NCBI GenBank assembly: GCA_963402885.1
Contig: OY727097.1
Coordinates: 7,130,001-7,194,000, forward strand
Length of the DNA: 64,000 nt
From: Antedon bifida
Lineage: Eukaryota > Echinodermata > Crinoidea > Comatulida > Antedonidae
Direction: 5' to 3'
The position numbers and the translations under genes were made by a program. Shown here one piece after another: positions 2,786-39,118 of the stretch. The stretch's first letter is position 1, and the number at the start of each line of letters is the position of its first letter. The notes beneath the pieces were generated by a model, which was not told the DNA's origin, made no database searches, and saw only the letters and a list, made by a program, of their open reading frames with translations.

Positions 2786-2962
2786 TGCATTTTTTGTTGT
2801 AGACTCCGAGGCCTACACAATAATTCGATTGCAACGTGTTGTAATGTTGTAAGTTCCCATACGTTATAATAAAATCGTAACACAGTTAATTATCAATGTA
2901 AATAGCACTATCTGTCCTATCTCGCCATATCCATCATGTGGACTTTCCATGACGTAAAACTC
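2786..2962 (+). repeat. Direct repeat, copy 1 of a ~175-bp duplicated segment
   Basis: It matches 4846-5028 closely, from GGCCTACACAATAATTCGAT through ACACAGTTAATTATCAA to TCCATCATGTG and TTTCCATGACGTA. Confidence 0.85.
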
Positions 2963-3789
2963 ACACATTACGTGGCATCACCTGAATACCAAGGCGTTTT
3001 AATTAAGGGACTGTATCATAATGCACGGTTCTCAAGCGCGTTGTGCCCAAAGGGCTTTTAACTGAAAACATGGCACAATGTAGGCTAAATTGTGTTTGTT
3101 CAATACCGTACTTCATTTAACTATTGAAAACATTAATGTAGTAGGAGCTGAGCTGCATTGAATTTCTTTTATATCATATTTCTCCTTATTTATGATAAAT
3201 ATAATGTAGAATGAAAGAAATCGGAAAGCTCATTCAATTTCCCTTCTCATATAAAATAATAACCGACCTTATTAAATTTCTAGATATTTTGGCATTTCAA
3301 AAGACAAATTCCAGACACTCAGAAAGCGTGTTGTCTCCAGGCGCATTGATCGGTTCGTGCCAACTGCTTTGCTTGATTCTAGCACATGTCATGTTAGCCA
3401 ATATCATAAATATACCGCATAAGCGGTGGTGCTTTATCATAAACGACATGCCTCGCTGATCGCTTCAAATATCAACCGGACTATTGATCACTCAAGTTGC
3501 TTAGCAACATCACTTGCTGACGTCATATGAGGAAGCGGGATGCACTCATCAGTTCCGAAACGTTTCGAGATCAGACTATTTATTTATAGGCCTACTCAAA
3601 TGTGCAAGCTAAAATTTCAATTTCTCAGTCACTACAAAGTTAAATATGTCCAAAAAACTACTAACTTGACTCGTCATATTACCGTGCATAACTTAGGCCT
3701 ACAAAATACCTGGATGTATATTGTAACGAAAATGTTGGAATTCAATTAGGCCATTGTACCTTATAAACATTAATAATTGGTAGGTTAGA

Positions 3790-3985
3790 CCAAGGCAATC
3801 TATCCGAGCTCCGAAGATCAAAAGATTTACCGTGGCTGCGACACGATCAGACCGCGCGCCGCGGAGAATATGTACATAGTACAGTACTGTTGGTATTTTT
3901 CGCAGCCAGACATAAGATCAAAGGACTGTTACGAGTTCCTATCTTGGCAAGGCGAGCTTAGCGTCCTGTTGTTAGATTGCCTTGG
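3790..3985. mobile_element. MITE family G (196 bp)
   Basis: CCAAGGCAATCTA at the left and TAGATTGCCTTGG at the right are perfect inverted ends. TTAGA on both sides looks like a 5-bp target duplication. Inside is a GC-rich section with further inverted GGCTGCGA and TCGCAGCC. Confidence 0.78.
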
Positions 3986-4845
3986 TTAGACACTGTCTAT
4001 AGTGTCGGATTTATAATAATTCCCTGACCACAATATAACGCAATTGAATTGTTTTCGATTTTTAATAGTAGGCGTAGGCCTACTGTTTGTTCCAAAACTT
4101 ACAATAGGCCTATTATAGGTTATTATTAATTCTTGATAATGCGTATTGGAAATAAAACATAATTAACTAATTTCATAATATGACTTAATGGTAGGATGTC
4201 CTGTTAGTTCCAGTTTCGCATTTTTGAAAAAAAAAACGTCTATATAATGTGATATTAATTTTATTAAAATATGTTTGGGTTTTCTTTATCAATAAGCAAT
4301 ATTGTAATATATTAGACGGTTATTAGTATATCATTTTGATAGAATGGTTTAACAAAAGATTAGTGGATAAGCCTATTGTAATAGTATTCTGTTTGAATTA
4401 CATCGCGGTATCTACCAGCAAGTACGGTGAGATCTGCTTAAAATTATTGCGTTATCGGAACTTTTAAGATGGTCCCTGATCAAGCTGTATAGTTGTTGCA
4501 CAGCCATTTCGTTATGCCTTTGTACACGTCTCTTTTGTAAATTAGACTTTCTGTGTCTGACTATTAAGTTAAGATACTTTATAGGCCTATTATGTAACGT
4601 TATGTATTTGTTATCGTCTCCCTTTATAGATGGTGGTTAGGCTATGTTTTATATTCAGCTTGTTTTTAATTTTAACGGATAAATAACAACTTCCACAATT
4701 TATAACATTTCAACGCATGAAAACCATTACATGGAACCTTTTTTCGCAGTTATAATATGCCGCGACGTATGCCCGAAATTTGTTTTTCACCACAATGTCC
4801 TTAGGCCTATATTTAGAAAGCAAACATATACATAAAAAAAGAAAT

Positions 4846-5028
4846 GCATTTTTTTCTCAGATTGTAGTCTCGTGTAGGCCTACACAATAATTCGATTTCA
4901 ACGTGTTGTAATGTTCCCATACGTTATAATAAAATCGTAACACAGTTAATTATCAAAGTAAATAACACTATCTGTCCTATCTCGCCAGATCCATCATGTG
5001 CACTTTCCATGACGTAGGCCTAAAACAT
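4846..5028 (+). repeat. Direct repeat, copy 2, carrying an extra TAGGCCTA
   Basis: It is nearly the same as 2786-2962. Where copy 1 reads GACGTAAAAC, copy 2 reads GACGTAGGCCTAAAAC. Confidence 0.85.
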
Positions 5029-5147
5029 AAAAAAAAAAAGAAATGTTATTTTTTTTTTTTAAATAGAGAGGATCATCCTGTCGCGATATATTTCCCGAAG
5101 TAATCTGTAGGTCTACCTCCATATTACCAGTTAGATAGGCACATTCT

Positions 5148-5252
5148 GTATACAGTGTCACATATGCATCACATGTGGCGCCTTGTTAAGTTTAAGGTTG
5201 GTGAATGGCCTATGATACATGTGATACATATGATACTGTGTATCTAGAATTT
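5148..5252. mobile_element. MITE family C, copy 1
   Basis: Its arms are of the type ACAGTGTCACATATGCATCA and ATACATATGATACTGTG. The internal CATGTGGCGCCTTG is shared with other copies. Confidence 0.55.
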
Positions 5253-5667
5253 GCCCATTATACCACCATGAAAGAAAATCACGGCAAAATAATACGGTAT
5301 TTTGCTAGATTTTTCCGTGTAGGCCTAATTGTGTTAGTGAACCTGTAGTTCAGTACAACATTTTATTTAAAGTCGATTTCCGCTAGTCTCAGATAGGCCT
5401 AAATGATAGTATAGGAAGGAAATAGTTAGCACTCCTATCCGTGATAGGTCATGACTATCATAACAAGAACACAAAGAGCTGGGATAAGTAGGCTAGTGCA
5501 TGAATACCACATCGTCGGTATCAATACAACTAAACTGGATGTGTTGTACTGATGTCGTTCGTAGTATTGTTGGGGAATTACCAACTTATTGTCTTGTAAA
5601 CCATTACTGAATTTTCCCTTCCCCTTCCCCAAATGTCTTTTCACTCTTAATTAAAGCTATACATTCA

Positions 5668-5994
5668 CTGAGCCCCGATTCGATCCTGTGGCCCATCGTT
5701 GCTCTGACTAAGTCTACACTATCAAACAAGTTTGACAAAAAAAGTGTACCCAAATATGGTAGTGATATCCCCAAATATGGTAGTTATGACATCATCATGT
5801 TCATATATGGGCACATCACATTTGTTTGTCACATAAAGTTTGATAGTGTAGACAGAGCTTAACGATTACACGTAACCTGTTCTTGCACGTTCATTCCTCC
5901 TTAAATGCTACATTATAATGTATACAAACAAAATGTATATGTATATTAAATGTATTCGCCCAATGGATCGGAATTCGAACTCCGTGTGAACGTC
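5668..5994. mobile_element. MITE family K, copy 2, split by a family B insertion
   Basis: The left piece (TTCACTGAGCCCCGATTCG) and the right piece (CGAATTCCGATCC and ACACGGAG on the minus strand, 5961-5994) are inverted ends of the same type as 13199-13385. The family B element lies between them. Confidence 0.5.
5702..5859. mobile_element. MITE family B, copy 1
   Basis: Palindromic ends TCTACACTATCAAAC and GTTTGATAGTGTAGACAGAGCT enclose short CCCAAATATGGTAGTGATAT units and a GACATCATCATG centre. The left tip is degraded. It appears nested in a family K element. Confidence 0.8.
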
Positions 5995-6080
5995 CTCTAG
6001 AACAAAAACCAAATATCGATCTTAATAAGGGAATAATTATCTCTCATTGTTAATATTGATGTTCCGGGTGTGATAAATGC

Positions 6081-6300
6081 ATTTTTTTTTTTGCATACGC
6101 ATCCAACAGCAAGTAACTCGCCAATTACAGGATGGATAAACTATTTTATAATTTATCGTGCTTATAAACTAAGTCTCATTTGAGGCTTAGGGAGTGGAGT
6201 TGAAAGAGTCGTGAGTTACAACCCTGGCACTAGGTCAGGATTGAACACCGGACCTTGGGATTGGAAGGCAAACACGTTAACCACCAAGTTACAGATCCAC
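6081..6300 (-). mobile_element. tRNA-derived SINE, family S1, copy 1
   Basis: On the minus strand a tRNA-like head carries an A box (ACTTGGTGGTTAAC) and a B box (GTGTTCAATCC), followed by a unique body and an A-rich end (the run of T at 6084-6093 on plus). It matches the plus-strand copy at 11133-11365 over its whole length. RNA polymerase III would transcribe it, and reverse transcription would need a partner LINE. Confidence 0.75.
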
Positions 6301-6449
6301 TATTCGGACCTGAATACTATAGTTATAAAGAATATATAAATAATAAGGAAATCACTAGCATATGTATGATTCCTTCGATATTGATTATAATGTAAATAAT
6401 ATTGCTGAATAGGCTATATGTGAATAAATAGAATAAGCATCGAAAAATG

Positions 6450-6625
6450 TATTTTCATTCATTTATTTATCCATTTATTTATCATAGTATATTCGTTCGT
6501 TCTCATTCTTTATTATTCATTCACTAATAAAATGTATTTATTCATTCATACCTTCATTCATTATTCAGTGAGTCATCTGTTCGTTCATTCGAACATTCAC
6601 TAATTCATTTATTTATTTCTGGTTT
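6450..6625. repeat. Degenerate ATTC/ATTT microsatellite
   Basis: About 170 bases are built of CATT, TTCATT and TTATTTA units. Confidence 0.8.
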
Positions 6626-6639
6626 CGTTTTGTATTCTA

Positions 6640-8500
6640 TAACCACCACACGAACAAAAATAATTAAAGTAGGCCAACTTTCTGCGGGTATGTAAAGCAA
6701 TCGAGTATAATTGCACACGTGGCGCCTCATAGCAAGTTCAATGTATGTACCTATACCTAGGGATAAACACAATACATTAGTGTAATACCCAGGAAACAGA
6801 TGATTTGAAATGTATTAGCGTTGCATGTTGAACGTAACCATAATCCAATCAATAACACAAAAAATTCCCTGACTCACCTGAAGCTATGCTGTTTTTTTTT
6901 ATTCAAAAATTATAATTACTAGAAAAGTATCTGTCTATTTCGGGTTAGGTTAAGTGTTCAATATCCGTGTGATGAATGTTGCGTGTAAATCAATAGACTC
7001 ACCGCAGCCATGTGTACTGATTATCCGTCTTCGCTTCAATATCGCGGCGATCTCTGATTGGAGTGATGAGTGTGTTTCGGAACCGAACATACAACGGCAT
7101 TTCGTTACTATGTATTCGAATATTGTTCGTGAAGGTTTTAATGTTGTGTGGGGTGGGGGGGGGGGGGGGGTGGGGGTCGGGTTTAATTGATGGGTCCCTC
7201 GTTACTCGAGTTGGCGTAATTTCAAACGATTCCCCATCGGAGAACGTTTGTTTTTGTGGTGCGCATTTATTCGAATAACATACTTTTGTTATAAAAGGTT
7301 ATTGCAGATATTATTTATAATCGTATTATGAAACCATGGTAAACGTATTACCAGTATTTCAGTGTTAGAATACTAAATTTTACTCTTATTTTTGTACTTT
7401 TTTTGGTTTTGGATTGAATTGAGAAACAGCGGTATCGGAGCGTTATTTATAAATGTTGCAATTAGTAATATTCGTCGATGATTTAATAGGCCTACTTGTG
7501 TTGCACTCGTTCATCTTTTGAAATCTAGGCCACCATTTTGTTTATTACCCGACTGCCATAAGGCTGCAGCAAATGCATTTAATAAGTGGTATGATAATTA
7601 GGCCTATATTGCCGGTATGTTTGTATGGATGAAGCGATTATAACAGTGTGTTTTACGGGTCATACAATCCTCTTAAAACTCCTCTCTAAAACAGATATAA
7701 CCGTCTAAATCACGCAGAATGATGCTCAATAATTAGGACATTTGCTTGGTGTTGCTTTGTTCCACTGCCGACTTGTGTGAAACTCCCACGTGTCGATAAT
7801 GTGCAAGCACACGGTAATTTCAGGGCCGAGATCATCGTCACCCGCCTGCACCCGACAGACGTACTATTAGGGCCTACGTTTAATTGTTCAGAGTGATTTT
7901 TGTTTAGACTATATAGAGATATCCCATATAAGATAAGGAAAATATTGAAAAGTAAATGATGTATCATATAAAATTACAATTTTTTTATAGATAAATGTAC
8001 TGTTTTAACATTATTTAGGCTTATAAACTGTATTAATTATACGGTATTAATTATTTATGTTTCATAATAATATGCATTTTTTATTCAAGAAATAAAAGTG
8101 AGTAAAATACCTACAAAAAAAAGTATAGGCTATAGAGAGACCTTAAAAAGGTCAAACCAACGCTTCTTCCCCGGGTGGCTTAAGACCTCCGATTCCATAT
8201 TATCTCAAATTCACCCCTTTTGTATCAAAAATAGCATTTACACACAATGTTGTTTATGGCGTAGGCTATGTTATACCAAAGTGAACTAATAAACGTATTA
8301 GATTTGTTTATCTTGTTAATTTCTCTCTGTGACGTCAATCGTCCTTAAAGGCTTCAAATGGGTATTCATTTTTGTAACGCAAACAAAATTCGTTATCACT
8401 GTTTAAGTGCAGCTTTACTATATAAATAAACCTAAATACATCTCTATTTTATGTTCCACGTACCACGCCGGGGCTGTTAAAACTAGTCGCTGCCGAACCA
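6640..8500. other. Non-coding, nothing recognised besides the G tract
   Basis: Only short chance frames occur, several overlapping each other on both strands, with no splice-consistent structure. Confidence 0.5.
7145..7180. repeat. G-rich tract
   Basis: A run of about 17 G is followed by TGGGGGTCGGG. Short frames crossing it are artefacts of the homopolymer. Confidence 0.85.
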
Positions 8501-8502
8501 TT

Positions 8503-8580
8503 ACCATGAAAGCCCAGTGGTCTAATGGTAGGATGTCAATGTCATATCAACAAATATTCCAGGTTCGAATCTTGATTCCA
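8503..8580 (+). pseudogene. tRNA-like sequence (degraded tRNA or SINE head)
   Basis: An A-box-like TGGTCTAATGG and a B-box-like GGTTCGAATC sit at roughly tRNA spacing. The D and T arms pair partly (4 of 5 pairs in the T stem), but the acceptor stem does not close. An intact tRNA is not supported. Confidence 0.4.
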
Positions 8581-9091
8581 ACATTTTAACCTCAATTTCC
8601 AGTATACCACCGGGCGTGACTCTATTGTATTGAAAGTTGATGACCCGTTTAGAGTATTTATTGTATTGTTCTACTGCATTTGATTAAGATTGTAATGACA
8701 GCGATTAAACGGCGTGTCGGTTACAAGGAATACGTTACGTAACCGATACGTTTGTCGGCTGTGAAATATGAAATAGATTTTTCTATTGATTGGGTTTAGG
8801 CTGTGTGGTACAATTTTACCTTTAAGTCACGGTTGACACACTACCACACGGGTTCACATTGACACGTTGTAGTATTTTATTTGTATTTGGCCTTTGTATT
8901 TTCCATTTCAAATAATTTTTCCATGACGATTATTATATATTTACCAATTTTTCCAAAATAATAAAGAAGCTTTATTTATAATTATGAAGCGAGTCTAGTT
9001 TGAACGGTTTTAAATCGGAGAGATTAAACGATACTTTTAGACTTTTCCAGAATCGTTCGCAATGATAATAATGAAACTTTTATAGATATTC

Positions 9092-9230
9092 AGAGTCAGA
9101 CGTGTCATCAAAAAGAGTGATGTACCCAAATATGGCAGTTATATGCCCAAATTAGGTAGTGATATGACATCATGTTCATGAGCGCATCACATTGTTTTGT
9201 CACATAAAGTTTGATAGTGTAGACTTAGCT
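9092..9230. mobile_element. MITE family B, copy 2, left end degraded
   Basis: The internal CCCAAATATGGCAGTTATAT unit and the right end TTTGATAGTGTAGACTTAGCT are present. Confidence 0.72.
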
Positions 9231-9557
9231 TAAGTATCATCAAATCATTCTCATATTCTTGGGCATCAGTATCACAATGACCGGCCTCTCAATAAATCTC
9301 CCGATTTCACATTATATGATAATACAATCCTTTAAACAGTAAGTGTGAAATTCCGATAATTTCAATAGCTCTAAGGCCCATATTAATACAGTTTTTTCTT
9401 TGTAATTCACTCCAATCACTCGGATCACCGACGACTTTACCACGCGCCTTGTTTGCTACGTGTGACGTCAATGATTTGCGTAACTGAAATAAGATATATT
9501 TGTTTTAACTTGCGATAGTTACGCTAAAATATCTATGAACAGACAAAGGCAATATGT

Positions 9558-9612
9558 ATATTCATTCATTCAATCTTTTATTTCGGAATCTCTGGTCCAT
9601 AGAAAGTATAAT
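9558..9612 (-). mobile_element. LINE 3'-end fragment
   Basis: On the minus strand it reads ACTTTCTATGGACCAGAGAT, then GAAATAAAAGATTGAATG and an AATG tail. A sister copy lies at 31715-31775. Confidence 0.6.
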
Positions 9613-9628
9613 TACCGTTCACACTACA

Positions 9629-9842: not shown

Positions 9843-11132
9843 ATTTGATGTAGCTTTTTATCTATTGTTTAGAAGCAGTTATTTATGTCACATGCTCTTT
9901 TCTGCCGCAGGCCTAACTGTATCTAACAATGTATAAATACACACACCAACAAAAAGCAATGCTTTTATTCTTCCAGTGTAACACTTCAATTGTGTAGTTT
10001 TCAGTAGGCGACATTCTGTTTACTGATAATTAGTATTCTAGAAGCGTTCGCTCTCTTGGCGACAATAAATGTATTCATAAAAATGTCGTCGTCATTTCAT
10101 ATATCCACTGTGTCGTTGACGGTATATTGGCGTCTACATCGTAACCCCAACGGCCTCTTTGGAAGGCCGCCGTTAGAATAACGTACCGGTACCAGCACAG
10201 TTAAATAATAATTACCACGGTTTATGGAAACGCGCCTAAATGCAATAATGTGACGAAGAATAAAACCGAGACAAAATTGAGAAAATTCTTACTAGATTAT
10301 GCTATACAGGCCTACATGAGACAGTACTTCCTCAGATACATTTTAAAACAAAACTCGGAATATTGGCATTAATATATTATTACTAGTTACTACTATAAAG
10401 GTAAAAAGGTGAAATGGTTAATTAATTACAGCAATAAGTATAATATATACAATGCAATCCTTTATTGACTCTCACTGTACGTTACTGTATTGTTATAGAA
10501 AACAAATAGCACAGAACGAAAACAAACTAAATAATGTTTACACAAAAATAAAAAATGTATTATTAAACCCTAATGTCATCATGGGGTCACATAAGAAGCA
10601 TTCAGTACTGTACTGTTTCGTCAACCTACAGGTCCTGGTTGTAATTATAAATGGAGACGCGAATTAAATTGGGAGCTTTCGATTTGCGATTAAATTGGTC
10701 GACGCACCTTGGGCCTATAATTGGCAAAATTGTGTCGAAAAATACAGTGAAAAGGCACGTCCATCCCCGCATGTACACAATGAACTAGAATGACGTGTTT
10801 ATGTTCTAGGCCTGCGTCGTCGCAAATTGGAAGTTCATAATGGACTATGTTATGGTTATATTATGAAGTTTGAAGTATGACACGAAAAGAGGAAGCAGAC
10901 GACGGCGGTTTGGGGGTGGGGGGTGGGGGAGGGATGGTTGTGGCTTAAGAAAGGGTATAGGGAAAGGAGAATATGAATGTGTGACGATCAGATTGTGATA
11001 ATGATTTAGGATGAGACTATCAGACGGACGAGTAAGAAGTTTATGACGTTGTTATCTACTGTGGCGACGCCGAGAACGACGCTGATAAGTAAATTGGGGA
11101 TGAATATGTGTAAAGGGATGAAAAGGATGACG

Positions 11133-11365
11133 TAGCTTGGTGGTTAACATGCTTGCCTTCCAATCCCAAGGTCCAGGGTTCAATCCTGACCTAAAGCAGG
11201 GTTGTAACTCATGACTCTTTCAACTCTACTCCCTAAGCCTAAAATGAAACTTAGTTTATAAGCATGATAAATTATAAAATAGTTTATGCATCCTCTAATT
11301 GACGAGTTACTCGCTCTTGGATGCGTATGAAAAAATAAATAAAAAAATTAATAAATAAATAGATG
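11133..11365 (+). mobile_element. tRNA-derived SINE, family S1, copy 2
   Basis: The head shows an A box (TAGCTTGGTGGTTAAC) and a B box (GGTTCAATCC, about 11178-11187). The body matches the inverted copy at 6081-6300, and the tail is A-rich with AAATAA repeats (11328-11362). The copy is complete and only modestly diverged from its partner. Confidence 0.78.
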
Positions 11366-13021: not shown

Positions 13022-13152
13022 AGCTTGGCTCCCACTAGGACGTACGTATCCCCAAGCGACAGTTCGAATAATCCATCGCTTGTGATTGGTCAAATTACTT
13101 GCGTTGCGCGTACGTCCTTGCGTTACCGGTACGTCCTAGTGGGAACCAAGCT
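13022..13152. mobile_element. MITE family A, copy 2 (131 bp)
   Basis: Termini are AGCTTGGCTCCCACTAGG and CCTAGTGGGAACCAAGCT. TAA is present on both sides. The subterminal repeats are the same as in copy 1. Confidence 0.85.
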
Positions 13153-13198
13153 TAATCACGAATGTAAGGAGTAGTGTTAGGCCTACTATTGTAAACAT

Positions 13199-13385: not shown

Positions 13386-14170
13386 GTTTAAATGAGTTAT
13401 GCAATTGTGAGTATAGTCCTACAACCCAAATCAATACAACCGGTCGTTACAAGAAGTAAAAATAAACAAAATATATTTTTAGTCTTATAGTATTTTTGTA
13501 ACATTTCCACTGGAAGTTTCCAGAACAATCATGTCATCAATCAAACTGAAAATGGATTTTAGTAACTATTACTGTAACTATTATCTATTTTGTTTTTAAA
13601 TCCATGTTTTCTCTATCTTGTTGAAAATCATTGCTATATTTAGCAGCGATATTTTAAATATTATACAAACAAACTGGGTTTGTTTATACTGTAAGTAAAG
13701 ATAATATTAAATCTATATTCAGCGAAGTTGACTATCATTTTTTAGTCGAATTTGCAATTCATGGCTGCAATACTTCACACCGTAATTTCAACAGTGCGTA
13801 GTCTAGTGACGTCACTCGCACGCCATGGTAAGGTCGGACAAACCGCAAATATAGACATCTGCACTTAGATTCACGTCATGTGCGTAATAATTTCCATGGA
13901 GATCCGAGATCAATATTAATAATTTATTGAGGATATAAATTGAGAATAATCCAAAAATGATATAGGAACTCTTTATCTTGTAAATTACGTAACGATGGTA
14001 ACCGATCATGTAATGATTAGAGTTAACAGTTATTTCTGTATCCGTGGATGATAGATATATTACTGCACAATGAGACACCATTTTGAGAAGTTAATTAGCA
14101 TACATTTAGTTAAAAACCGTATGATAGGCCTGCTATTAGTATTAGGCCTAGATTCATTGTCTGTCTGTAA

Positions 14171-14394
14171 AGGTTGGTTCCCACTAGGACGCAATGCAAG
14201 TACGTAAGCGCAACGCACAAGCGAGTATTATTATATAACTGTCCGACATTGGTCAACGCACTTGCGTTTATGCTTACGTCATAGCTTTTTATGAAAAAAA
14301 ATGGAAAAAAAATGAAAAAAATGCCTCAGACATTGGTCAACGCACTTGCGTTTATGCTTACGTCGTTACTTTGTATCCTAGTGGGAGCCAAGCT
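14171..14394. mobile_element. MITE family A, copy 3 (224 bp, internally duplicated)
   Basis: Both termini are present and TAA flanks both sides. The right half (ACATTGGTCAACGCACTTGC and following) occurs twice, at about 14246 and 14332, separated by an A-rich spacer. This makes the copy longer than its relatives. Confidence 0.83.
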
Positions 14395-14569
14395 TAAACG
14401 TAGCATGGTATTAATGAAACGCTGTCAATAATTAATATTCATGAATATTAACTTTTTATAAAAGAACTATTAAGAAAATAAACGGACAGACAAATTGGTT
14501 CATGTAAGCCAAACATTGGATGTTAAAACTGTCTTATGTTATCTAAACTAATTCCTTCGTGGAATAATA

Positions 14570-19806: not shown

Positions 19807-19808
19807 AG

Positions 19809-20267: not shown

Positions 20268-20549
20268 TTTTTTGTAAGGGTAATAGTGTATTTCTAACAA
20301 TTCCATCATTGTTATCTACTCCACAATGAGTTATATCTAGGTTGTTAATATTGAACCCTCACACCACCCAGATTGCTAGGTTTGTCCTTTTCTGATTTTG
20401 ACAATTGTGTACTGTTGTAAATTGCAATGGAGCTCATCCCTTGGTCCTGAGGACACTTCTATTAAGGGGACACTTTTCCATTAAAAACGAGTGAGGCATT
20501 TGTTTTAACATAGGCCAACCCCTCTCAGAGGACACTGATTGGTTATTTA

Positions 20550-20696
20550 GGCTTGGTTCTCACTAGGACGCACGCAAGGACGCAACGCAAAGTGGTTTGA
20601 CCAATCACAAGTGATGGATTATTCAAACAGTCGCGTGTCAACTCGCTTGCGTTGCGTCTACGTTATTGCGTTGCGTCGTATAGTGGGAACCAAACT
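20550..20696. mobile_element. MITE family A, copy 7 (147 bp)
   Basis: Termini are GGCTTGGTTCTCACTAGG and the complementary right end ATAGTGGGAACCAAACT, with TTA on both sides. Confidence 0.85.
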
Positions 20697-21401
20697 TTAA
20701 TAGGGGCCCATCGTACGTATTAGTAGTTGTCCTGTTTCTGCCCAGTAGCAGTAGCAATATGATACAATAACCTTAATATTAATATGATCTAAAACAATAT
20801 ATAACCACAACACACTGTATACTCGCAATGGTGTCAAATCGTGGATGTCGTATGTTTATCTTATTTATATCAACGCTATCTAAATAACAAGATTGAACAT
20901 TAATAACTTTATAGTTCATATTACAGCGTACCGTATGCAATTTCATTCCAAGTACTAGCAGAGCAAGGATATTCGGTAATGTCCGTGGATATTAAACCGT
21001 AAAGAGATGTGAGGACGCGATAAGCACAGATTAAAATACACCGCCTAATGCGACTACGACGTGGATTGATGTACTGTATTTGTTTTTTGCATAAAATTAC
21101 GTTCATGTTGTGCGCAGCGCGTTCATAATATTAAAGTTGACATAGATACGTCTACTGCCCGGAGACTACGGTCGGCACATTTTGTTGGCTACACTGCGCA
21201 TTGTTATTTACTGGAAAGATAGCCTTATAAAAGTGGTGTTTCTCACGATGTTCCAAATACAGATATTGTCACCCCTCCAAGGTGACAACCGCACTCTCCA
21301 TGCATACAATCTAACCTTGTAGGTTATACCTTAAATTAAATATTAACCTGTCATTGCTTGAGGTGTATTATAATACAGTAATATAATAGAAGGCCTATAA
21401 T

Positions 21402-21580
21402 TATGGAACGCCATCGACTTTTAGCATTCGGCGCTTTTCTACAGTATTCGGTCCTACTATTACGTTCGGCTCTTTCAGCATTCGGTCCATTTCTATTCGG
21501 CCCATTTACCATTACGTTCGACTCTTTTAGCATTCGGCACATTTTTATTCGGCCCATTTTGGCAACGATGGCGTTCCATA
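21402..21580. mobile_element. MITE family F, TA-flanked (179 bp)
   Basis: TATGGAACGCCATCG and CGATGGCGTTCCATA form perfect 15-bp inverted ends. If TA is the target, this fits a Tc1/mariner-type site. The interior repeats CATTCGGCNCATTT-like units several times. Confidence 0.75.
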
Positions 21581-21982: not shown

Positions 21983-22085
21983 GACCAATCAGAAGCGACA
22001 ATTCGAATAATCCATCGCATGAGATTCGTTAATTCGCTTGCGTGCGGCTTACGGCCTTACGTTGCGTCCTAGTGAGAACCAAGCT
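21983..22085. mobile_element. MITE family A, copy 8, left-truncated
   Basis: The centre and right arm, ending TGAGAACCAAGCT, are clear. The left terminus is missing. Confidence 0.7.
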
Positions 22086-22229
22086 TTAGATCACCATATT
22101 AGTATTTATACCGCAACAGTAACCATGATGTCATTACATGTGTGTTATTTTCATTGATTTTAATCCGACTGAATATTTATAAAAAAATATTGGCGTCATG
22201 GCGGAAAGTGCCTGGTGCGTTAGACTCAC

Positions 22230-22520: not shown

Positions 22521-23604
22521 TAGAGACATAGTGCATATCTATGTGCCATCATTCTTGTTGTGTGACTGTTGTGTCACAAGTGAATCTGTGTAGTTATTTT
22601 AAGATCATAACAATACCAATTGATATGTACCTATATATTCAGCATAAATGCTCAGAGCAAATGTTGATGCTCGATGCTATCACCGTGATATAGGGTATTT
22701 TATTTTAAACTAAGGCCAAAAAATGTGTAGTTCATTAATTTTGGAGCGCATGCCATTTTTACTTTACTATTTAATTCGTTTAAACAAAAATGGTCGCACT
22801 CAGTCAAAACAACTGAAATAATCATTACACTTCCGATCGAAATTGGCATGATTGTCAAAGGCTTTTCGAGGTGTGTAGCCTAAACGCCGACTGAACGTTT
22901 TAGACAATCGTTCCGCAGTGATTTGTAGGCCCCACGTATAGCAAATAGATTATGGTAAAGTCTCTTATCAGGGAAGAATAAGATTATTATTACTCATCAA
23001 AAATACAGTTTAAATCCCGACGTTTTTTTTTTCCTATATTGAATGTTATCCTTTTGGCGTATGACTAATGTTTAGCAAGTTATCCAGCTAGTTATTGTTC
23101 ACACATAACGCTTACAACACCTAAACAATGAGCTCTGTAAATTCTGATCTGATTATCCCGAGATTACTTTGTTAATTATCCGATAGGCCTACACCTGTAT
23201 CATGCACATTCAAACCAGTTCAACACCGTCTGAACGCACATTGTAGGAAGTACGAATACGCTGTATGTTTAAACCAGTGTCCAAGTTCGGACAATGGAAT
23301 TTATACCCTTTTACTTCATTAATTAGAAATCAATAATTATTACTGGTAAAGAAATTATTATTGGACTATCGTATACGATGTCTCTATAGGATGGGATAAC
23401 TACTAAGTCCATTTAACTACTCGTCGGGTTATAACTTATAGGCCGAGATATTCCTAATTGGGTAATACATCCTAACAAATCGATTGGTAATGTTAAAGTA
23501 TAGGCTACGGAAATATACTGGAGAAGAAAGAAAGATCTGAAGAATAGATACAGTGATTTCTGAAATAAAAACAGATCATAACGTGTGCAAAAAGTTACTT
23601 CTAA

Positions 23605-23775
23605 AGCTCTGTCTAGGCCTAACACTATCAAACTTTATGTGACAAAAAAAATGTGATGTGCCCATATATGGACGTATGGATATCATATCACTATACCATA
23701 TTTAAGCATATTACTTCCATATTTGGGCACATCACATTTGTTTGTCACATAAAGTTTGATAGTGTAGACAGAGCT
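23605..23775. mobile_element. MITE family B, copy 3 (171 bp, with TAGGCCTA insertion)
   Basis: Both ends are complete (AGCTCTGTCT ... AGACAGAGCT) with TAA on both sides. At 23611-23621 the family sequence GTCTACAC is interrupted to read GTCTAGGCCTAACAC. Confidence 0.88.
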
Positions 23776-24928
23776 TAAGACATAATGGTTGACATTTACT
23801 CGACTATCAACACATACTGGTACCTTTTAATATTACCGGTAGGCCTACAGTATTAACATCGATATTCAAAACCCAGCACGAAAAATGCTCGACATTTCAG
23901 CGCCAATGCATTATAGGCCTACATTATAATTTCAATACAACAATATTAAGAGGATTTACAGTTTGTAGGCCTATAACATTATCTTTATCGAATTTTAAAT
24001 ATAAATATATATGATCCCTCATTCGTTTTACAGAAAGTGTCCCCTGAGTGTCTGAATATTGGGGTGTCCCAAAGGTTTTATACTGTAATTACATCATGAC
24101 TCCTGTAATCACTTCGACTTTTTACTCCACGTTCTCCAGGCGTTTTTATACTATATTATTACCGTACTCCGCCATTCGTTGTTGGATGCATTTTGGTGTG
24201 ATTATTTACTAGAAATAGTTATTATTATTATTTAATAGAAATCTATTTATAGAAATACTAGGAATAAATAATTACGACATAATAAGAATAATATAATCTA
24301 TTACAGCCAAATTTTGGAACCATCATTCATTTTCCCACGGGAATTTAATTGATATTCGTATTCTCCATTATATCGATCGAATGGGATGTTTTGAACAGAT
24401 AATCAGCAGTAGGCCTATATAAGCTCCTCAAACTCACCGCTGTATGCGAGACGTCCAGTGGGCGTTATAATCACTGTGAATTGCGAGTGACCAGTCGAAT
24501 ACGCCTAGCTTTTACGTATTAAATTTTGACTGGCTTACTCTTAACTCTATCGTAGCGTCAAAAGAAACCCATGTCGCCATACCGTTGTTGATTCGAAAGG
24601 GAAACTTTTGTTTGGTTCCGACGAAGGTGCCCCCTCAATAGGGGTTCTACTGTACTGTTGTAGAGGGAATAATCCATCGCCCACATTTTAAATTAAGTAT
24701 GGAAAATTTCAATTATACTGGTCATGGTCTATACATACCACGAAAATTGGATACCACGAAAATTGGTCATTTTCACATTTTAGTCAAAACGAAAAAAATA
24801 ACATCATGATTGCATTGTTGAAAACATGTAATTTCCGGGTGTCTCAATTCAATAATTTTGTTTATTATAATTTCTTCCTATTCAGGTATAAGCATTTTAT
24901 TTCACGTCGAACATTAACATGGGTGTGA

Positions 24929-28849: not shown

Positions 28850-28930
28850 ATTATTACATGTTGTGGCGCCTGTAATTTTATTGCATAACACACAGGCGTC
28901 ATATGTGATGCATGTGTGACACTGTATTAC
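28850..28930. mobile_element. MITE family C, copy 2
   Basis: ACATGTTGTGGCGCCTGTA pairs with ACAGGCGTCATATGTGATG. The right end reads GTGACACTGTATTACAG. Confidence 0.6.
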
Positions 28931-29584
28931 AGCATTTACCAGTGATATCAATAAACAAATTAATCAGAACAGAAAATTCGTCTCATTTGGGACGCTATTT
29001 TTCAGAGTCTTGTTTTGTCATGGATACTTAATTCACCATACACTAGTTTGGTCACGTCAGCATTCGCAGACTTTCGTACAATAAGCCATCACAAGCATCT
29101 CAATTGACTCTGCATATAAACGCCGTTTATAATTATAATAATTGCAGAGGCCTAGCCATTGTCGACCCAGATTAACCTACCGATTAATGTAGCCATTTTT
29201 AACCTACTTTACGAACATCCTATGAATTTAAGGGGCTGTAAAATGCAATGTATGCCTTTTCTTAAGACATTTGGCGAAAGAATAAACTTCTGCGAATTTA
29301 ACATGCGTTACGTGAGCGAAATTGAGATTCATGGATTCGGATTAACTATTTATTTGCAATGTTGTTGCGAGTCGAGTACATCATTCCGGCTATTCTCCAT
29401 ACCCTCATCATATTTAATCTGAGTCATTTTACAAACGTGGCTAACATAGTTAATATAAACGGCATGCGTGCGCTTGTTTTTTTTAAATATGAAATGTGTT
29501 ACTGGTTGTTTCTGTGCTTAAACCTATAGGCCTACTTAGCATTGAAGTAAATAAAATTGCATTAGGCCTATATAACAATTTTAC

Positions 29585-29766: not shown

Positions 29767-30221
29767 TATCAGTACAGTGCTGTTTTATGTTTTGTTTTAT
29801 GTGTAAACTAAACCGAATTCATCATTGATACGTTGTATGATATAAAATACATATTTTAACTGATCTCCGTCCTTCCCGACTTTGACGATTTCAGATCCCG
29901 TCCCCTGAGGCTGGTGTCTTCGGTTAAAAAATCCCCATGCCTTGATAAGTGAAGGTGTTTTTGACACGGAAAAGACACAAACTTTCCGATTTCTCATATC
30001 ATCGCATCGTATGTTTACCCGTCTTGGAGCTCAATTTTCAGGTGATATTGCGATGACTGCTGTTTATAGGTCTAGTGCTGTGCTGCAGTAATTGAATATA
30101 TTTCACCCGCAATCTTTGTACTCTATCACCATGTACATATGTTTCGTACCTGTACCACCATTACACCATCTATTATCTATTTTTATGATGCTGCAATTTA
30201 TGCTGTTATCATAGGCAAATT

Positions 30222-30318
30222 GTGCAATCACATGTGGCGCCTGTATTATGTTATGGTAAGGTTTGGCATTATAGGCCTACAGGCTTTACATGTGATTCAA
30301 TGGGACACTGTATCCCGG
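30222..30318. mobile_element. MITE family C, copy 3
   Basis: AATCACATGTGGCGCCTGTA and ACATGTGATTCA are the arms. The right end reads GGGACACTGTATCCCGG. A TAGGCCTA octamer sits in the middle. Confidence 0.6.
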
Positions 30319-31714
30319 AACTTGCCTTATGATACTATATTATAGAGTTGAGTACTGAAATCGAACGATTGTACACAGTCAAAAAAAAAGTATTGATGTC
30401 GTCATCGCATATCAAATATTATAACAAGGGCGGAAGAAATGAGACCAACGGATTCCAAATGACGTAAAAAAGTAGAATTATCGCAAAATGATCTCATTCA
30501 ATTCAAATGGGATAATAGCGGTAACCGATTGATTTCCACCCCATGGCAATACGATAAGTGTGACCTTTGACCACATTACGTGGTAATCAAAATGGTACGC
30601 AAAAACAACGCCGCGGCAGTCAACAACGGGCCGCGCTGATTAATCTGTCTCCGTCAGCATTTACTGCGGTGCATCATGATAGGGATAGATAGTTAGTTAC
30701 TCCATGTGTTTAATTGACTTAAAGCTAAATTTAAATATACCCTCCCAAATAGGCACCATAAGGGCCAACAGCGCAGCAAACGTGTAAGAACGCAATAGAA
30801 TAAATGCCGCAGTAAAAGTGAAGCAGGCAGCAACGAATCTCAGAAAATGTTCATTCAGGCCTACACAGTATAATTTGAATAATTTCATGCGCGTGCGAAC
30901 CAACACGTTTGTGAATATCACGGATGTTTGTATCTTTGAATGCACGTACTCAGTTAGTTACTGCCGTGAATGTGCCTAGCAATTATTGCGATTAATCAAA
31001 CGGTTTAGACAAACGTCGTACGTAGGAACATTAGATTGCATATCATGACGAGATAATTAATGTTTAGTAGCAGATGGCCATGGTTTTGTATTTATTTGCT
31101 TTTGTCGCGCGCGTAACTTTTGTCTTAAATTATAAGCAAGGCCGGTGATAATATGAGTTGGTTTCAAATGTAGGCCTACAGTTATCGCTAAAATTGGTGG
31201 GTAAGGAATCGATTTACCAGTGTAAATACAGTAACTAAGTGTCCACAAAGAGGATACGAGTTACTGTGATATAATATGATTACTGTACATCGCCTTAAAT
31301 CACATACGACCAACAATCTAAAAATAACACAATATTATTATAATATAATAATTATGCGGAAATAGTTTACAAGGCCTATAGGATTACTGTAGGCCTTATA
31401 TTTTTATTATATTATGTTTATCTGTAACATAATAGATGGGTTAAGAATGTTGCAAAGGCCTCGACATTCTAGTGTCAGCCTCATGTTTACGGAATGTAGA
31501 ATTCCTTCTTTTTATATGAATTGTTAAGAAAATCGATATGGCCTGATGTGTAGACTCAATTCAAGTGAAAATGTTTTAGTCTCAACGATTATAGGCAACG
31601 TCTTATATAAGTCAAAGATGCTCTCCAGGTGGAATGCCATCCTGAGATGAGTAGTAGTAATTAGTAGGCCTATACGTACAGTCTTCTTTATTTTTATTTC
31701 ATTTATAATATGTA

Positions 31715-31831: not shown

Positions 31832-32277
31832 TTTTTCAGTTGATGCAATTAAGCATATGCCTTGTCTCTTACGATTATGTTATGTCACTGTCAGTAGAGC
31901 CAGGTGTCGAGTTGAAAATATACGTCTACAAACTACGTCAAACCATAACGAACGAATGCAATCCTTACGATTGAAGAAAAATGGAATAGCAGGAAATGAC
32001 AATATTGTAAGAAACACAAAGTTGCACGCTTCAGGGGTCTTCTCATCAAAATGGCATTAATGTGAATTAATGATTACCTTACCGATATATTTTCTTGTTT
32101 TCAACATTTTCTATTTTTGTTTTTTACATTGTCCATTGATACGTATAGTACTCTATATTTTTCAGTTGATAATGGAATAGTGTTTCAACGATAACGCCCC
32201 TGTCAGAGAGCAAAGTGTGGCGTTGAAAATTATACTTTTATAAACTACGTCAACTAACCATAACAAATAAATAAAGT
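31832..32277 (+). repeat. Degenerate direct duplication
   Basis: TTTTTCAGTTGAT, CTGTCAG, GTTGAAAAT and AAACTACGTCAA recur in order at 31832-31965 and 32159-32277. Confidence 0.6.
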
Positions 32278-32287
32278 AAATACAAAT

Positions 32288-32400
32288 CAATTTAAATAAA
32301 TAATAATAATATATTTATTTCGTCCAAAATACACAAAATGATAAAATGATGAATATATAAACAATATACACTGGAGGAGGGCAGACAACCGAAGAAGAAA
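32288..32400 (-). mobile_element. Probable LINE 3' end with ATT tail
   Basis: On the minus strand TTTTGGACGAAATAAATATA is followed by ATTATTATTATT. This tail type resembles the full LINE at 54885. Confidence 0.5.
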
Positions 32401-32706
32401 CTATACTTCTGATGTTGATTTTATCAAATTTATTTGATGTATTAATTAAGAATTGAATTATTAGGCCTACCTAAAATGCTTTGACTGCCCTTTGATATAA
32501 CTTATAAACTGTAGGCCTACTTTGAAAGAATACTGACAGAAATGTATAAGTTGCTAATTTAACGATAACAATTACATAAAACATAATAATATGTTGGTCT
32601 GCTGTCCTTTGTCTGTTGCACTTGCATGTAGTGGTGTGAGGATCGAGCTAAGTTTGTTGTTGAGAGAAAAGCATAATTATACAATTTACATACGTAAATA
32701 ATGTTA

Positions 32707-32860
32707 AGCTCTACACTATCAGAAGTTATGTGACAAACAAAATGTGATGTGCTCATATATGGACATGATGATGTCATATTACTACCATATTTAAGCATAT
32801 CACTACCATATTTGAGCTCATGAAACTTATTTTGTCAAACTAGTTTGATAGTAGTGTGTG
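32707..32860. mobile_element. MITE family B, copy 4
   Basis: The left end AGCTCTACACTATC follows TTA. Internal CATATATGGACATGATGATG is present and the right end is decayed. Confidence 0.75.
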
Positions 32861-34251
32861 CATTTTTTTAAATGCTTGTTTTATTGAGTCATATTGCAAT
32901 GAAGGCTGTTTACAAACCGTAATCAATTTTGTTTTAATTTTCTTCTGGACCCCCCGTCGAGACATTCGCGTTTAGCGTGCCATATACAGTATACTGTTTA
33001 GGAAGGTTTATCGCAGTATAATTTCTGTTTAGTTGTCTTAATTATTTTGCCAGTTAGTCAATCAGAGTTATTAATAGATTCCGATGACTCACTCTTCCCT
33101 GGCCATATCAAATATTTTTGTGACGCCATCGTCTTTTGTTTTTAATTGTTCACGCTTCCGTGAGATTATTTGAATTCAGTCGTGTGAGGAGTCTGATGCA
33201 TTCCCCCACCTCACCCCCTCCCCTCATAGTATAGTTTTTACACTTTTTAAAATCCCAATTGACTGAAAATAACCGTTAATGATTATATTATAGGATAGTG
33301 AAGTGAAAAAAACTGAACTGTAGGCCTAATCTTATAGTTTTTTCTCTCTCTCTCTCTTTTGTGGCGTAAACACCACTTTTATTCACATAATATCATCTTT
33401 CATGATGTCATCACCATCATCGTATTATCTTCATTATTATCACATTTTTTTCAATTTCAATTTGATAAACTTCTTCAGTAACATTTTTAAATCTAATGTA
33501 AATTCACTTTGTATTCCATATTACCTCACTTTTTCATTAATTTTCTTATATTTTTTTATACTTACACTTACAAAAGAAGTTTAAAAAGTTAACACAAAGA
33601 CGATATGCCTAAATAACTGCATCATTAACCTTTTTGTTTCCAAACAACGTTATAACATACATATACATTTTTATTGTCATATATCTACATCAGCGTTGGT
33701 GCAAATTGTTTTTTTTAAGGATATTGTAGGTTGGTTTTGTGGAAGTTGCTTAGGCCTATATTGTTAATTTTCTGGTGTAATTGTTTCTCTTCTTGTTTGT
33801 TTTTGTTTGTATGATTTGTTTATGGATGTACTATCCGAAAAAAAGAAATGAATGAATATCTCATTTTAAAATATTTTACACAGAAATAATCTTATTAAAA
33901 TTCTTATACTTATTAATGCTGGATTTAAAATTACTCAACTCCTGTTTTATGAGACATTCGCGGGACGAGTCCCTTTAATAGAGGTTGCCCATGTGTTATA
34001 CATTCATTTCCCTCATTCATTATCATGGCGCCAAAGTCCCCTTCATTTTCTCCCCATTCTGCACAATGTAAATGGAGAATTGTTTTCCAACCATTTTCTT
34101 ATGAGGAGTTCTCTAATAACATGCGGGCAGGTTCTTTGTTCACCGACGTAGCATGGCCGGCTGGTCCTGTTCTCAATTAATGATTGATATGCCGTTTATA
34201 AATTCTACTGGTATTTGCGTTTAATCTTCGATCGTTTTAATATGGACACTC

Positions 34252-34400
34252 CTCTAAGGCTCTGTTCACACTCAGGAGTGGATTCGGCCGGAGAAAACTT
34301 CACGTTTTTCGATCACGCAGGTATGCGTTTTGAACGGAATCCGGAGTGTGAGTGTAGACAAACACTACACGTAGTTTTCACGACTTTTTATCCGTCCACT
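34252..34400. mobile_element. Family K-like fragment, copy 3
   Basis: CTGTTCACACTCAGGAGTGG and GGATTCGGCCGG resemble the family K end. A related GGAATCCGGAGTGTGAGTGT follows at about 34339. A chance 121-codon frame crosses it and is not considered a gene. Confidence 0.4.
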
Positions 34401-34415
34401 GGACTGGAGTCCGAG

Positions 34416-34570
34416 TTATTTATTTATTTATTTATTTATTCAATTTCCAGGTATACAAACAGAAAGAAACCAACATTAACAAACGAAGTGTGGATGGAGT
34501 ACCCTGAGGATTGCCAACAGTGCAAGCACTATCAAAGTGGCTCTCCAATACTCCAAACCACATACATAAA
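34416..34570 (-). mobile_element. Probable LINE or SINE 3' end with AAAT tail
   Basis: On the minus strand TTTGTATACCTGGAAATTGA is followed by five or six AATA units (plus strand 34418-34440). Confidence 0.45.
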
Positions 34571-36493
34571 TCACATATAAATTGAAAACACACATTAACT
34601 TTAAAATATATAAAATACAGATCAAAAGATTATAAATAAGAAAACTACAGAATAACATAAATAGTAAAAATTCAAAATAAAAAAGGCACATACAAATTGA
34701 GCTATCAACAATTATAAGAAATAATTGTAATTACACAAAGATAATGTACAATTTAAAGTTCAGTTAGGCTATAGTTGAATGAAGAGAATTTTTTTTTTAT
34801 TGTGACCTTAAACAATACCTAGAACATATGGAGTATATAGGTAAATAGGATTGTATATAATAAGATTCAAGTATAATATTCAACTATTCTATTGTATTTT
34901 AAAAAGCGAGTTAAACTTTGTATTGCATATTGTATAATTTATTCACGGTACATTTTTTCGTCTTTAATTGAATTTTGTTTACATCGTGTTTAATAAAAGA
35001 GATTTGTTGTCTTTATGTGAACTTCTATGCGTTTACACAGTGCTTATTATGTAATTATGCTTCTTTGTTGCTTTTTTTGTTTTTAAATTTTATTTTTAAA
35101 AAAATGTATTTTATCTGTGTGCACGCACCATTATCGTGTGCCACTGTTATAAAAGTGAACTTTTAAATTTAAATTGTGTTATTATATTAAAACCGTGACA
35201 CGGAGTATACGGTACTGCGATGACGCCCATACAAAGTCTGCTTATATTTATGGAGCGTTATTCAACATAATAAGGTTAAATATTTACCCTTCTTGAAAAT
35301 ACAATTCAGCTAGTTAATGCCTCATATATAATAAACCCTAATTTAATTATTTCTGCGGTGACAATTTCTTTTGTCGCTCGCACACATTTCCGTTCAAACT
35401 CAATAAAGTACTGTACTATTATACGGTGGAGTGGTGTGTTGAATTAAATATTTTCGATTTCTATGTTTATCGGAACTTATGAGACGATCCCTTCATATGG
35501 TAGTCATTGCTACCTCGTGGTTCGGCGGCGCAGAAATAAACAGTGTTTATGCGATTAACGAGAGTCGTTTTCGTTTTAGATTCATATTAACTGTTTGCTA
35601 GTCAATGTACTAGTTTAACTGGCTGAGTGATTGTCCAATTGTTCAACCGAAAAGGTTATCATTCGAAGCTTTTATTTGGCCATCATCTGAACGCTTCGTC
35701 GAAACAATGTTTTACAGGGCATAAAAGTAAGTTTTGTCTTTTTGTTGATTGTTGCTATACTCATAAAGTATCGGAACTGTTGAGGTGGTCCGCTGTCGAC
35801 CAGGGTTTTTTTTTTTCATTGGGGGCTAGATCTGACCTTATGTTTTATAGATACTGTTATGTTTATACAATGCTTTAATGTAACATTTTGTATGAATAGG
35901 CTGTACATATCAAGCTACAAACATCAAAACCAGCCCCTGCATAAACTGTACAGTTTAATCCAAAATCGCCATTATTAAGCGAATTTAGGCTTACTAAATG
36001 CCCGGCCACAAAACACAATGGAGTTTTGTAATTCAATTAACACATGCACTGTTTAAATACAAAATAACATCCGGTTGTTTTTGTGCTGATGGTACTGCTG
36101 CCGTATATTTGTTTCAATTGTATTCTGCTATTTATTCAAGCTTTTGGTACTTCTGCCGTACATTTTGTTTCAGCTATTTATACAATCTCGAGATTTTTCA
36201 ATATTTCTCTGTGTGAAATTTAATTGATATTGTTGTATGCTATAGTTTGTATCGTAATATGAAATGTAGCTCCATTGTGTTCCTGTATTTCAAGAGTGAA
36301 CAAATACAATTATCATTATAACTGCATATGACCTGATAAAGATTGTTCATGTTTACAATATCTAATTACGTCATTATTTTCAAAAAGCCAATCTGAAATA
36401 TTACATTATCATCTGTACGTCTTTTTTATACTTTCGAGGAGGAGTATTGAATTGTAATTGGTAACTTCATACCAGAGAGGCCATTCCATCCAA

Positions 36494-36538
36494 TCAGAGA
36501 AGAGAATGAAATTACATAATTTTACTCTTCCCTGATCC
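36494..36538. repeat. Small palindromic repeat (AAGAGTAAAATTA type)
   Basis: CAGAGAAGAGAATGAAATTA pairs with TAATTTTACTCTTCCCTG. A second copy with CAGGGAACTAAATTG and TAATTTAACTCTTCCCTG is at 41785-41817. Confidence 0.55.
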
Positions 36539-36804
36539 AATAATGTTACAGTTTCTCCTCAAGCCCGTAAATTGTGGATTTAGTCCTAGACATTCCCAAC
36601 ATCGAAAGTCTGCCTTAATTCTTTCTAAAAAATCTCTCGAGGAAAGTTTGTTCAATAGGCCATTTGAATGGCACATACCAGTAATATTAATTCAGACCAA
36701 ACATCGGATCGAAAAAAAAATACTAGCCTGAAACAACTGTAATTAAAATTGTCAACCGGAAGACCTTTGTCTGAACATGGAATAATTGGTTTAATTAGTT
36801 TCGT

Positions 36805-36854
36805 CATGGAGCTATAAAAATTAGCTAATAATAGCTAATTTTTATAGCTCCATG
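36805..36854. repeat. Perfect 50-bp hairpin
   Basis: Two 23-base arms (CATGGAGCTATAAAAATTAG followed by CTA, and its exact complement) flank a 4-base ATAA loop. Confidence 0.92.
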
Positions 36855-37198
36855 GTTTCGTTTAATTCCTCCATGGTCTGGAATTCAAAGAGTTGCTTGT
36901 TGAATTTGACTGTTTATTATGTTTATTATATATATATTTCAAATTTGTATTTAGGCCTATTCGTTTTCATGTTTCGTAGGACAATACATCTTGAAATACA
37001 AATTGAACACCAGCCATTTAGCCAGTCGGAAGCGAAGTAATTCGTTTCGGTCAAGTAAAATACCTCCTCCTTAAAAAACAGAACATTGGAGAAAAACTGA
37101 AATAATATTTACCACCGTACCGAACTACTCCAATGAAATTTCTTTATGAACGATGATACTGTTAGAATGTTCTTATTTGTGTGTGTGTTTGTGTTGGG

Positions 37199-37213
37199 AG
37201 GGGGGGGGGGGGC
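37199..37213. repeat. Poly-G tract
   Basis: About 14 G interrupted by one C follow a GT-rich stretch (37177-37196). Confidence 0.85.
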
Positions 37214-38955
37214 GGGATTTCGGTTTCAAACTGCTTACTGTTGCTTTTTGTAACAACAGCAATTGGCGCACGTGACTAGAAGAATACCTGTCCTCAGCTT
37301 CAACAACGTGTTGATTTCGATTATGGTGTGTTTAAAAGAAATCATATATTAAATTCTACCTTGTAGGCGTAAACAAAATCATGTAGTGAGGCGACAAGTA
37401 CATAAGGTTAGAATATAGTAAAGACTTTAGTTTTATGGTGATTATAAACACTATACTGCTATTATAGTACTATATTACATTATAGGCCTATAGGGGCCTA
37501 CACATTTTGTTTCATGAGGATTTTTGTATGATATGATGTCGTAGCCCACGTTCCATCTTTTATAGGCCTTTACTTCAACGCTCAACTACGGCTTCATGCC
37601 TGTTAACAGACTGAACCCGTAGGCCTAATATAAAAATAGGTATGTTTAATTTTATATTCGAATAATTTCGTGTCTATATTTTTAACTTTTTCAATCCAAT
37701 TGTGGTAGACTAACTGGTTGCACGTACTGCATTACATCTTCCGAATGTACGGTATCGGTTTTCCAGTGTTAGGTTATCTAGACGAATAATAGATATATAT
37801 GCTTATTTTAAAATTATTGCGTACATTTTACCCACCGATAAATGCCAACATAAATAATTTGTCAAGTTGGTAAAGATCCAAAAGTCCGCCTTGGAGAGAT
37901 CCAAACTTGTGTGGACTGTTAACAACCATTTTATTTCGTTTCGCCCAGACAATAATCTCAGATTCGTTTTATTTGTTGGAGTTTAATTCAAAAACGAAGC
38001 TAAACATTTATTATTTATTTTTAACACACCTACTGCCCTAGAGTAAATTTTATTCAATTAATCAGACGCTTCCATCTTGAATCGAATGTCGAAGGCTAGG
38101 CCATGTAAACATTATGATGTTGGCCGCGAGAGGCTATCGCCCGCGGGATCAGAGCAGTTATACTCGGCGCACTCTGTATGTTAGTTTTAAGCCTACCGCG
38201 CTGCACAACAATTTAAGCGCGTGAAATTGTTGGAGGCAAAACTGATGCGTGACACGTGATACGAAATTAACCAATGAACTGGAAAGATCACTTTTATATT
38301 ATTTCTTGGGAAAATTATACAGTATTACATACTTTTTTTTCAATTCGGTTTATGTGTAATGCTGACTTTATATAATAAAAATTCAAGAACATTCAATAAT
38401 TACAATTTACATTGTTCTTTATAATCATATTCGACGCACACACTTTTTATTCATTGCACTACATTCAAATACGCCTACTTTAGGTATATTTGTATAGTGG
38501 AAATTATCACTTGTATAAATATTATTCCATAGTCACCGAACCGATATTTAATGTGTATATTTTTCATGTTACCTGAACCGATAGAAGTATATTTAGACTA
38601 GTATTATTTGGTTCATAATCCTAGAAATATAAATAACTTCAAATGAGGCAAATTATTGAAAATCACGTCACTGAATATACGTACGTCAGACAAACAGTTT
38701 TAATTAATGGTTTATTCGCCGAATGAATGGTTAAAGTATTTTGAATACATAACGGTAATTAAAGAAATAAATAATAGTTATGATAAAATATTGAAGAGTT
38801 CATGATTGGATACCTGTATTATGTCTTCTGGTGGGAGAATTTTCCCGCTTCTGTATCGGTCTTCTTTTTTTTTTACCACTGTAGACCTAACCCAATTTAG
38901 AAAATTATAATTGAAGGCGCGCGTATGCTGCATTATGATATTATTCCTTTTTTAA

Positions 38956-39118
38956 AGCTCTGTCTACACTATCAAACTTTATGTGACAAACAATGTGATG
39001 TGCTCATATAGGCCTATATGGACACGATTACGTCATATCACCACCATATTTGGACACATCACACTATTTTTGTCAAACTAGTTTGATTATGGCATGGTTT
39101 GATAGTGTAGACAGAGCT
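38956..39118. mobile_element. MITE family B, copy 5 (with TAGGCCTA insertion)
   Basis: The ends are complete and flanked by TTAA-like sequence. Internally CATATATGG of other copies is replaced by CATATAGGCCTATATGG at about 39005-39021. Confidence 0.87.

Follow-up and report, generated by a model that had tools for sequence, protein, structure and literature searches.

In a 64,000-base stretch of DNA from the crinoid Antedon bifida (contig OY727097.1, positions 7,130,001 to 7,194,000; the whole stretch is hereafter called the window), the palindromic octamer TAGGCCTA recurs far beyond chance. Comparison of related copies shows that at several places it is a derived insertion at TA dinucleotides and not a sequence lost from sister copies, the empty form being the majority in the repeat families concerned. 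We consider it probable that a cut-and-paste transposon of the IS630-Tc1-mariner type, which targets TA, left the octamer as a footprint when it was excised. This idea is supported by the majority-empty copies, by the TA specificity of the excess and by a set of enriched companion words, among them the footprint of Sleeping Beauty, which have the same outer-flank preference. Coordinates below are window positions, and no strand is assigned except where one is given.

Abundance of the octamer and its insertion at TA

A total of 61 copies of TAGGCCTA and 86 occurrences of its AGGCCT core were counted, the octamer reaching a density of ∼1 per kb through non-coding DNA. Markov models of orders 1-4 with the motif masked predict 0.43-3.96 copies, and the unmasked models predict 0.96 (order 2) and 4.7 (order 3); the mean of 100 order-3 simulations was 4.68 copies and the maximum 11. 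An earlier note on this DNA, made from the letters alone, had claimed dozens of occurrences of octamer or core where chance would give about one. Counting against a Markov background within the window bears this out, and the density stays well above that of a third-order model (61 versus 4.7). The note had placed the occurrences between 2786 and 39021; they are indeed found there, but these limits do not hold, as the 61 copies span 753-62663, with the outermost ones starting at 753 and 62656. The copies are dispersed window-wide and mildly clumped (variance/mean of 1.4-1.7 in bins of 1-8 kb). Among palindromic octamers, TAGGCCTA is by far the most enriched (z of 26 versus 5.6 for the runner-up), and when octamers of every kind are included its z is surpassed by the simple run GGGGGGGG alone. 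One-mismatch neighbours are also in excess (59 versus 13-31 expected), whereas two-mismatch neighbours are not (177 versus 174-193 expected). The one-mismatch excess, which corresponds to a change of ∼6-9% per base by a hand calculation, is moderate, as would fit inserted DNA that ages neutrally.

Filled and empty copies were then compared in MITE-B, a family resembling miniature inverted-repeat transposable elements (MITEs). One octamer (23614-23621) lies in the left terminal repeat of the copy delimited by self-comparison at 23600-23780. The search for this end gave 14 raw matches, and exclusion of 15441 and 34527 as unrelated left 12, of which 10 are empty (CTACACTATCAAAC), one is filled and one (32853) has diverged. 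A second octamer (39009-39016) is found inside the copy at 38940-39132, likewise delimited by self-comparison. Here the anchor search gave 20 raw matches, from which 11 unrelated ones and two that belong to the element's other half were excluded; five of the remaining seven copies are empty (CATATATG in four, CATAATATG in one), one is filled and one (9192) is deleted at this place. The filled/empty contrasts previously pointed out in copies 3 (23611) and 5 (39005) of this family are therefore confirmed, with a single filled copy facing ten and five empty ones, respectively. Alignment of the MITE copies of the window thus shows the empty form to be the majority at both sites, and the octamer does not belong to the MITE consensus there.

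A tandem pair provides a filled/empty case additional to the three of the earlier note. The octamer at 39252-39259 is present in one unit and missing from the sister unit (39339-39385), which reads CACACATG and for which we infer the TA of the empty form. By contrast, the third case of the note, which set position 5012 against 2957, proved weak. The octamer concerned (5015-5022) is homologous to its counterpart on the left side only, and agreement stops ∼5 bases to the right of the TA, so that the site is the end of the duplicated segment. The duplicates at 2809 and 4876 both carry AGGCCTAC, indicating that this insertion is older than the duplication. The net gain is +7 at 23614, either +7 or +8 at 39009, according to which sister is used, and +8 at 39252; a gain of +6 was found for TAGGCCTA in the weak 5015/2957 pair.

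A uniform sister-copy test was also applied to all TA-x-TA words with x of 3 or 4 bases. Among the 61 GGCC words, three had an empty sister, none a filled one and 58 were undecided. The five CCGG words gave one empty and no filled sister, as did the 96 CAG, GGC and CCG words taken together. For 1,385 control words, 13 empty and 87 filled sisters were obtained, and several of these 13 empty cases correspond to poor or A-rich alignments. In the empty copies, TA itself or a stretch that includes it occupies the site in five cases, three of TAGGCCTA, one of TACCGGTA and one of TACAGTA.

Companion words and the excision model

An order-2 model served as the background for scoring the 32 classes of TA-NNN-TA words and the 16 TA-palindrome-TA octamers. 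More than 2-fold enrichment is shown by three of the 32 classes only, namely GGC/GCC (23 versus 4.9 expected), CAG/CTG (48 versus 13.9) and CCG/CGG (25 versus 8.3), and the fourth-ranked class reaches 1.64-fold. All three are palindromic around a central base and have G/C edges, a form to which four classes belong; by a hand calculation, the odds that the top three would all be of this form are ∼4 in 4960. The leading octamers are those with GGCC (61 versus 0.6) and CCGG (TACCGGTA, 5 versus 0.63) between the TAs. The nearest four-base palindromes of CAG are not enriched (TACATGTA, 1 versus 3.3; TACTAGTA, 1 versus 1.0).

The excess of these words is specific to TA flanks. Between flanks other than TA (15 dinucleotides), GGCC is found in 0-2 copies per dinucleotide, and the other words show small excesses only, the largest being CCG in CC...GG (6 versus 0.9), CAG in TG...CA (9 versus 4.3) and CCG in TT...AA (15 versus 7.8). 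Moreover, the base outside the TA is G in 39% of the GGCC half-sites and in 32% of the half-sites of the three enriched three-base classes, compared with 16% in the other TA-NNN-TA words (p of 5e-9 and 3e-7, respectively) and 19.5% in GC-rich controls. The left and right outer bases of the octamer are independent (20 matches, 18.4 expected), and the outer G thus resembles a target preference and not part of a longer palindrome. The same independence at position -1 rules out an extended palindrome or hairpin around the octamer.

Two companion words can be seen as insertions themselves. TACCGGTA at 13124-13131 is inserted at a TA in a copy of the MITE-A family (13053-13158, by self-comparison) and is missing from the best sister (2205-2254) and from the other MITE-A ends compared; the alignment gap is TACCGG, a gain of +6 that is exactly the length expected of the overhang plus one TA. 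In a tandem array, one unit carries TACAGTA, a word of the Sleeping Beauty footprint type, at 21440-21446. This unit reads TTTC-TACAGTA-TTCGG and its sisters read TTTC-TA-TTCGG (21480) and TTTT-TA-TTCGG (21532), so that the gain is exactly +5, that is CAG plus TA, again the length expected of the overhang and one TA.

These features can be accounted for by a model whose transposase, source element, stagger length and annealing step are all inferred. The element would insert at a TA, which is thereby duplicated, and on leaving would be cut a few bases inside its ends, the flanks keeping terminal bases of the transposon as short 3' overhangs that the cell would then join. With an end starting 5'-GGC, overhangs annealed in register would contain one G.G mismatch and yield TAGGCTA or TAGCCTA, whereas overhangs shifted by one base, with the self-complementary GC paired, would contain no mismatch and, after gap filling, yield TAGGCCTA. 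By the same rule, a CCG end would give TACCGTA/TACGGTA or TACCGGTA. A CAG end would give TACAGTA/TACTGTA only, since no slipped pairing is available and no four-base partner is predicted, in agreement with the unenriched TACATGTA and TACTAGTA. A four-base GGCC overhang or two filled two-base overhangs could also generate the octamer. Two other schemes were considered. A two-base overhang with one strand kept is disfavoured, as the predicted TAGGTA/TACCTA fall below expectation (23 versus 29.7), and for full fill-in of three-base overhangs none of the four predicted words was present in any copy.

The Sleeping Beauty transposase is described as cutting three bases inside the element, the three-base 3' overhangs becoming the footprint (PMC7827188); for this element and for Frog Prince, the footprint is tabulated as C(A/T)GTA (PMC3878927), and a footprint length of 2-4 bp is given for Tc1/mariner elements (PMC7913693). 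The words found here are like these footprints in having a TA on both sides and a few bases between, palindromic apart from the centre. In addition, TACAGTA/TACTGTA is itself enriched in the window, with one copy being an exact insertion of CAG plus TA. However, the main scar differs from the Sleeping Beauty and Frog Prince footprints by its fully self-complementary four-base GGCC, by its density of ∼1 per kb and by having no source in the window. In grasses, Stowaway, a MITE of the Tc1/mariner type, is reported to leave short fragments of its terminal repeats between duplicated TAs in natural populations (PMC1925063).

Several observations weigh against excision as the origin of the octamer. 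GAC/GTC, which has the same palindromic, G/C-edged form as the three enriched classes, is barely raised (10 versus 7.0), and TAGTACTA, with a GTAC core, is found 4 times versus 1.03 expected without a matching enriched three-base class. A direct empty sister is available for just one of the 96 three-base words. A single product dominates, with 61 copies of TAGGCCTA versus 23 of TAGGCTA/TAGCCTA, and the gains of +7 and +8 at TAGGCCTA are not the predicted +6, so that extra target bases or imprecise joining would be needed. In the published account of grass Stowaway (PMC1925063), the footprints are of several kinds and several are recorded per site by species comparison; here, one word predominates, is found at many places and was recognized mostly by counting. 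Rice excisions are described as highly varied, only 8 of 94 being perfect, in a data set where all DNA transposon superfamilies are pooled (PMC4423477). Finally, there are at least 60 scars in the window and no visible source element.

Source element and alternative explanations

The earlier note had suggested a TA-targeting transposon with GG...CC ends. Insertion at TA and an excision footprint are supported by the data above, but such ends are not, as a search of the window for TA-GG...CC-TA pairs with inverted ends at most 6 kb apart found none. No GG-ended family was present among the best 40 TA-flanked inverted ends of any kind lying within 3.5 kb, nor among the best 12 clusters of similar ends for each of the prefixes TA-GGCC, GGC, GG, CAG, CCG, CGG and CCGG. 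The ends of MITE-A and MITE-B differ from GG...CC. A third repeat, family C, was considered as a GGC-ended element beside TA and rejected, since its homology extends beyond the GGC to the left and to the right. That no source turned up in the window is genuinely puzzling. Conceivably, the octamer is an exact scar of excision or elimination at ∼1 per kb whose sources are nearly all gone from the sequenced DNA, maybe removed very efficiently thanks to self-complementary ends that reseal cleanly and possibly through programmed somatic elimination of TA-bounded elements in an animal; we regard this as a long shot.

The alternative that best survives is a sequence-specific micro-insertion without any transposon, for example the addition of GGCC(TA) at TA breaks by an enzyme or by templated end-joining. 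It would be compatible with the observed insertion at TA, with an unusually uniform product, with net gains varying from +7 to +8 and with a source element not seen in the window. However, the CAG, GGC, CCG and CCGG words share one flank bias and fit the annealing of overhangs from several transposon ends, and TACAGTA with exactly CAG plus TA added is a known transposon footprint, which makes this explanation unlikely on balance. A selected protein-binding or regulatory motif could explain an exact palindrome in many copies, but three copies were inserted recently into MITE or tandem units, the outer flanks hold no motif except a weak G, the octamer is spread at ∼1 per kb throughout non-coding DNA, and decayed neighbours are present; a functional motif is thus very improbable. 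Slightly less probable still are scars of programmed DNA elimination, in which TA-bounded germline elements would have been removed from the sequenced somatic DNA: the scars are many, exact and located at TA, with no resident element in the window, yet there are several distinct scar words and the decayed neighbours suggest neutral ageing. An artefact of composition or repeats, with the octamer arising by chance or within a repeat consensus, is hardly credible, because, despite the repeat-rich window and the duplicate pair in which both members carry AGGCCTAC, the order-3 simulations never exceeded 11 copies and none of the 61 copies has a filled sister better than an empty one.

If the octamer is indeed an excision footprint, the count of a single word would read the transposon-excision history of a genome, which is normally hidden by short and varied scars, and at ∼1 per kb such scars would make up a noticeable share of the small insertions in this lineage. 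Whether an overhang ends in two self-complementary bases would then decide between a three-base and a four-base scar. Other short palindromes are known to be repeated in genomes, such as HIP1, iterated through the genomes of cyanobacteria, and the GC clusters inserted into the AT-rich mitochondrial DNA of yeast. Unlike these, the words described here are insertions of 6-8 bases bounded by TA, lie in DNA that also contains a long interspersed nuclear element (LINE) and MITEs, and are accompanied by three-base words of transposon type. Among the titles and abstracts listed in text searches, whose coverage leaves out most subscription journals, there was no report of TAGGCCTA as a genomic repeat.

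The octamer was also encountered in viral contigs. Two stretches, L080 (7,152 bases) and L089 (7,444 bases), contain 8 and 7 copies of TAGGCCTA versus 0.2 and 0.1 expected, which are possibly repeated operator sites. At least 120 viral stretches have two nearby octamers, and the counts come from 80 of 120.

Other contents of the window

The LINE lies on the minus strand at 55261-58650 and has a long open reading frame with matches to RVT_1 and Exo_endo_phos_2 (Pfam). None of the eight footprint words is found in this region, where ∼8.6 would be expected at the window average (hand calculation); coding composition may contribute to this. The window has one open reading frame of at least 150 amino acids. 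Together with the reverse transcriptase of the LINE, the MITE-like families and a CpG observed/expected ratio of 1.14, this indicates eukaryotic nuclear DNA. The ratio, taken over 1-64000, means that CpG depletion is absent, which is unusual for a methylated animal genome. MITE and LINE probes had no matches in viral contigs and prokaryote genomes.

MITE-A copies are located at 2063-2262, 13053-13158, 14168-14400, 20543-20700, 21983-22089 and 40559-40719, and MITE-B copies at 5701-5868, 9109-9238, 23600-23780, 32699-32852, 38940-39132, 41131-41309 and 51295-51438. By eye, the two families seem to have the end AAGCT..GT...CACTA in common and may depend on related transposases. Family C is a diverged repeat of ∼110-120 bases that contains an inverted structure in its interior (CACATGTGAT, GGCGCC), and its copies lie approximately at 5138-5255, 28860-28940, 30214-30326, 48300-48399 and 61590-61690. 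In some of them the outer sequence ends like GATACTG followed by TA, and we would guess that the family may be a Tc1-like MITE with CAG ends. Finally, an inverted pair of ∼209 bases (6084-6292 and 11132-11339), 90% identical, is separated by 5 kb.

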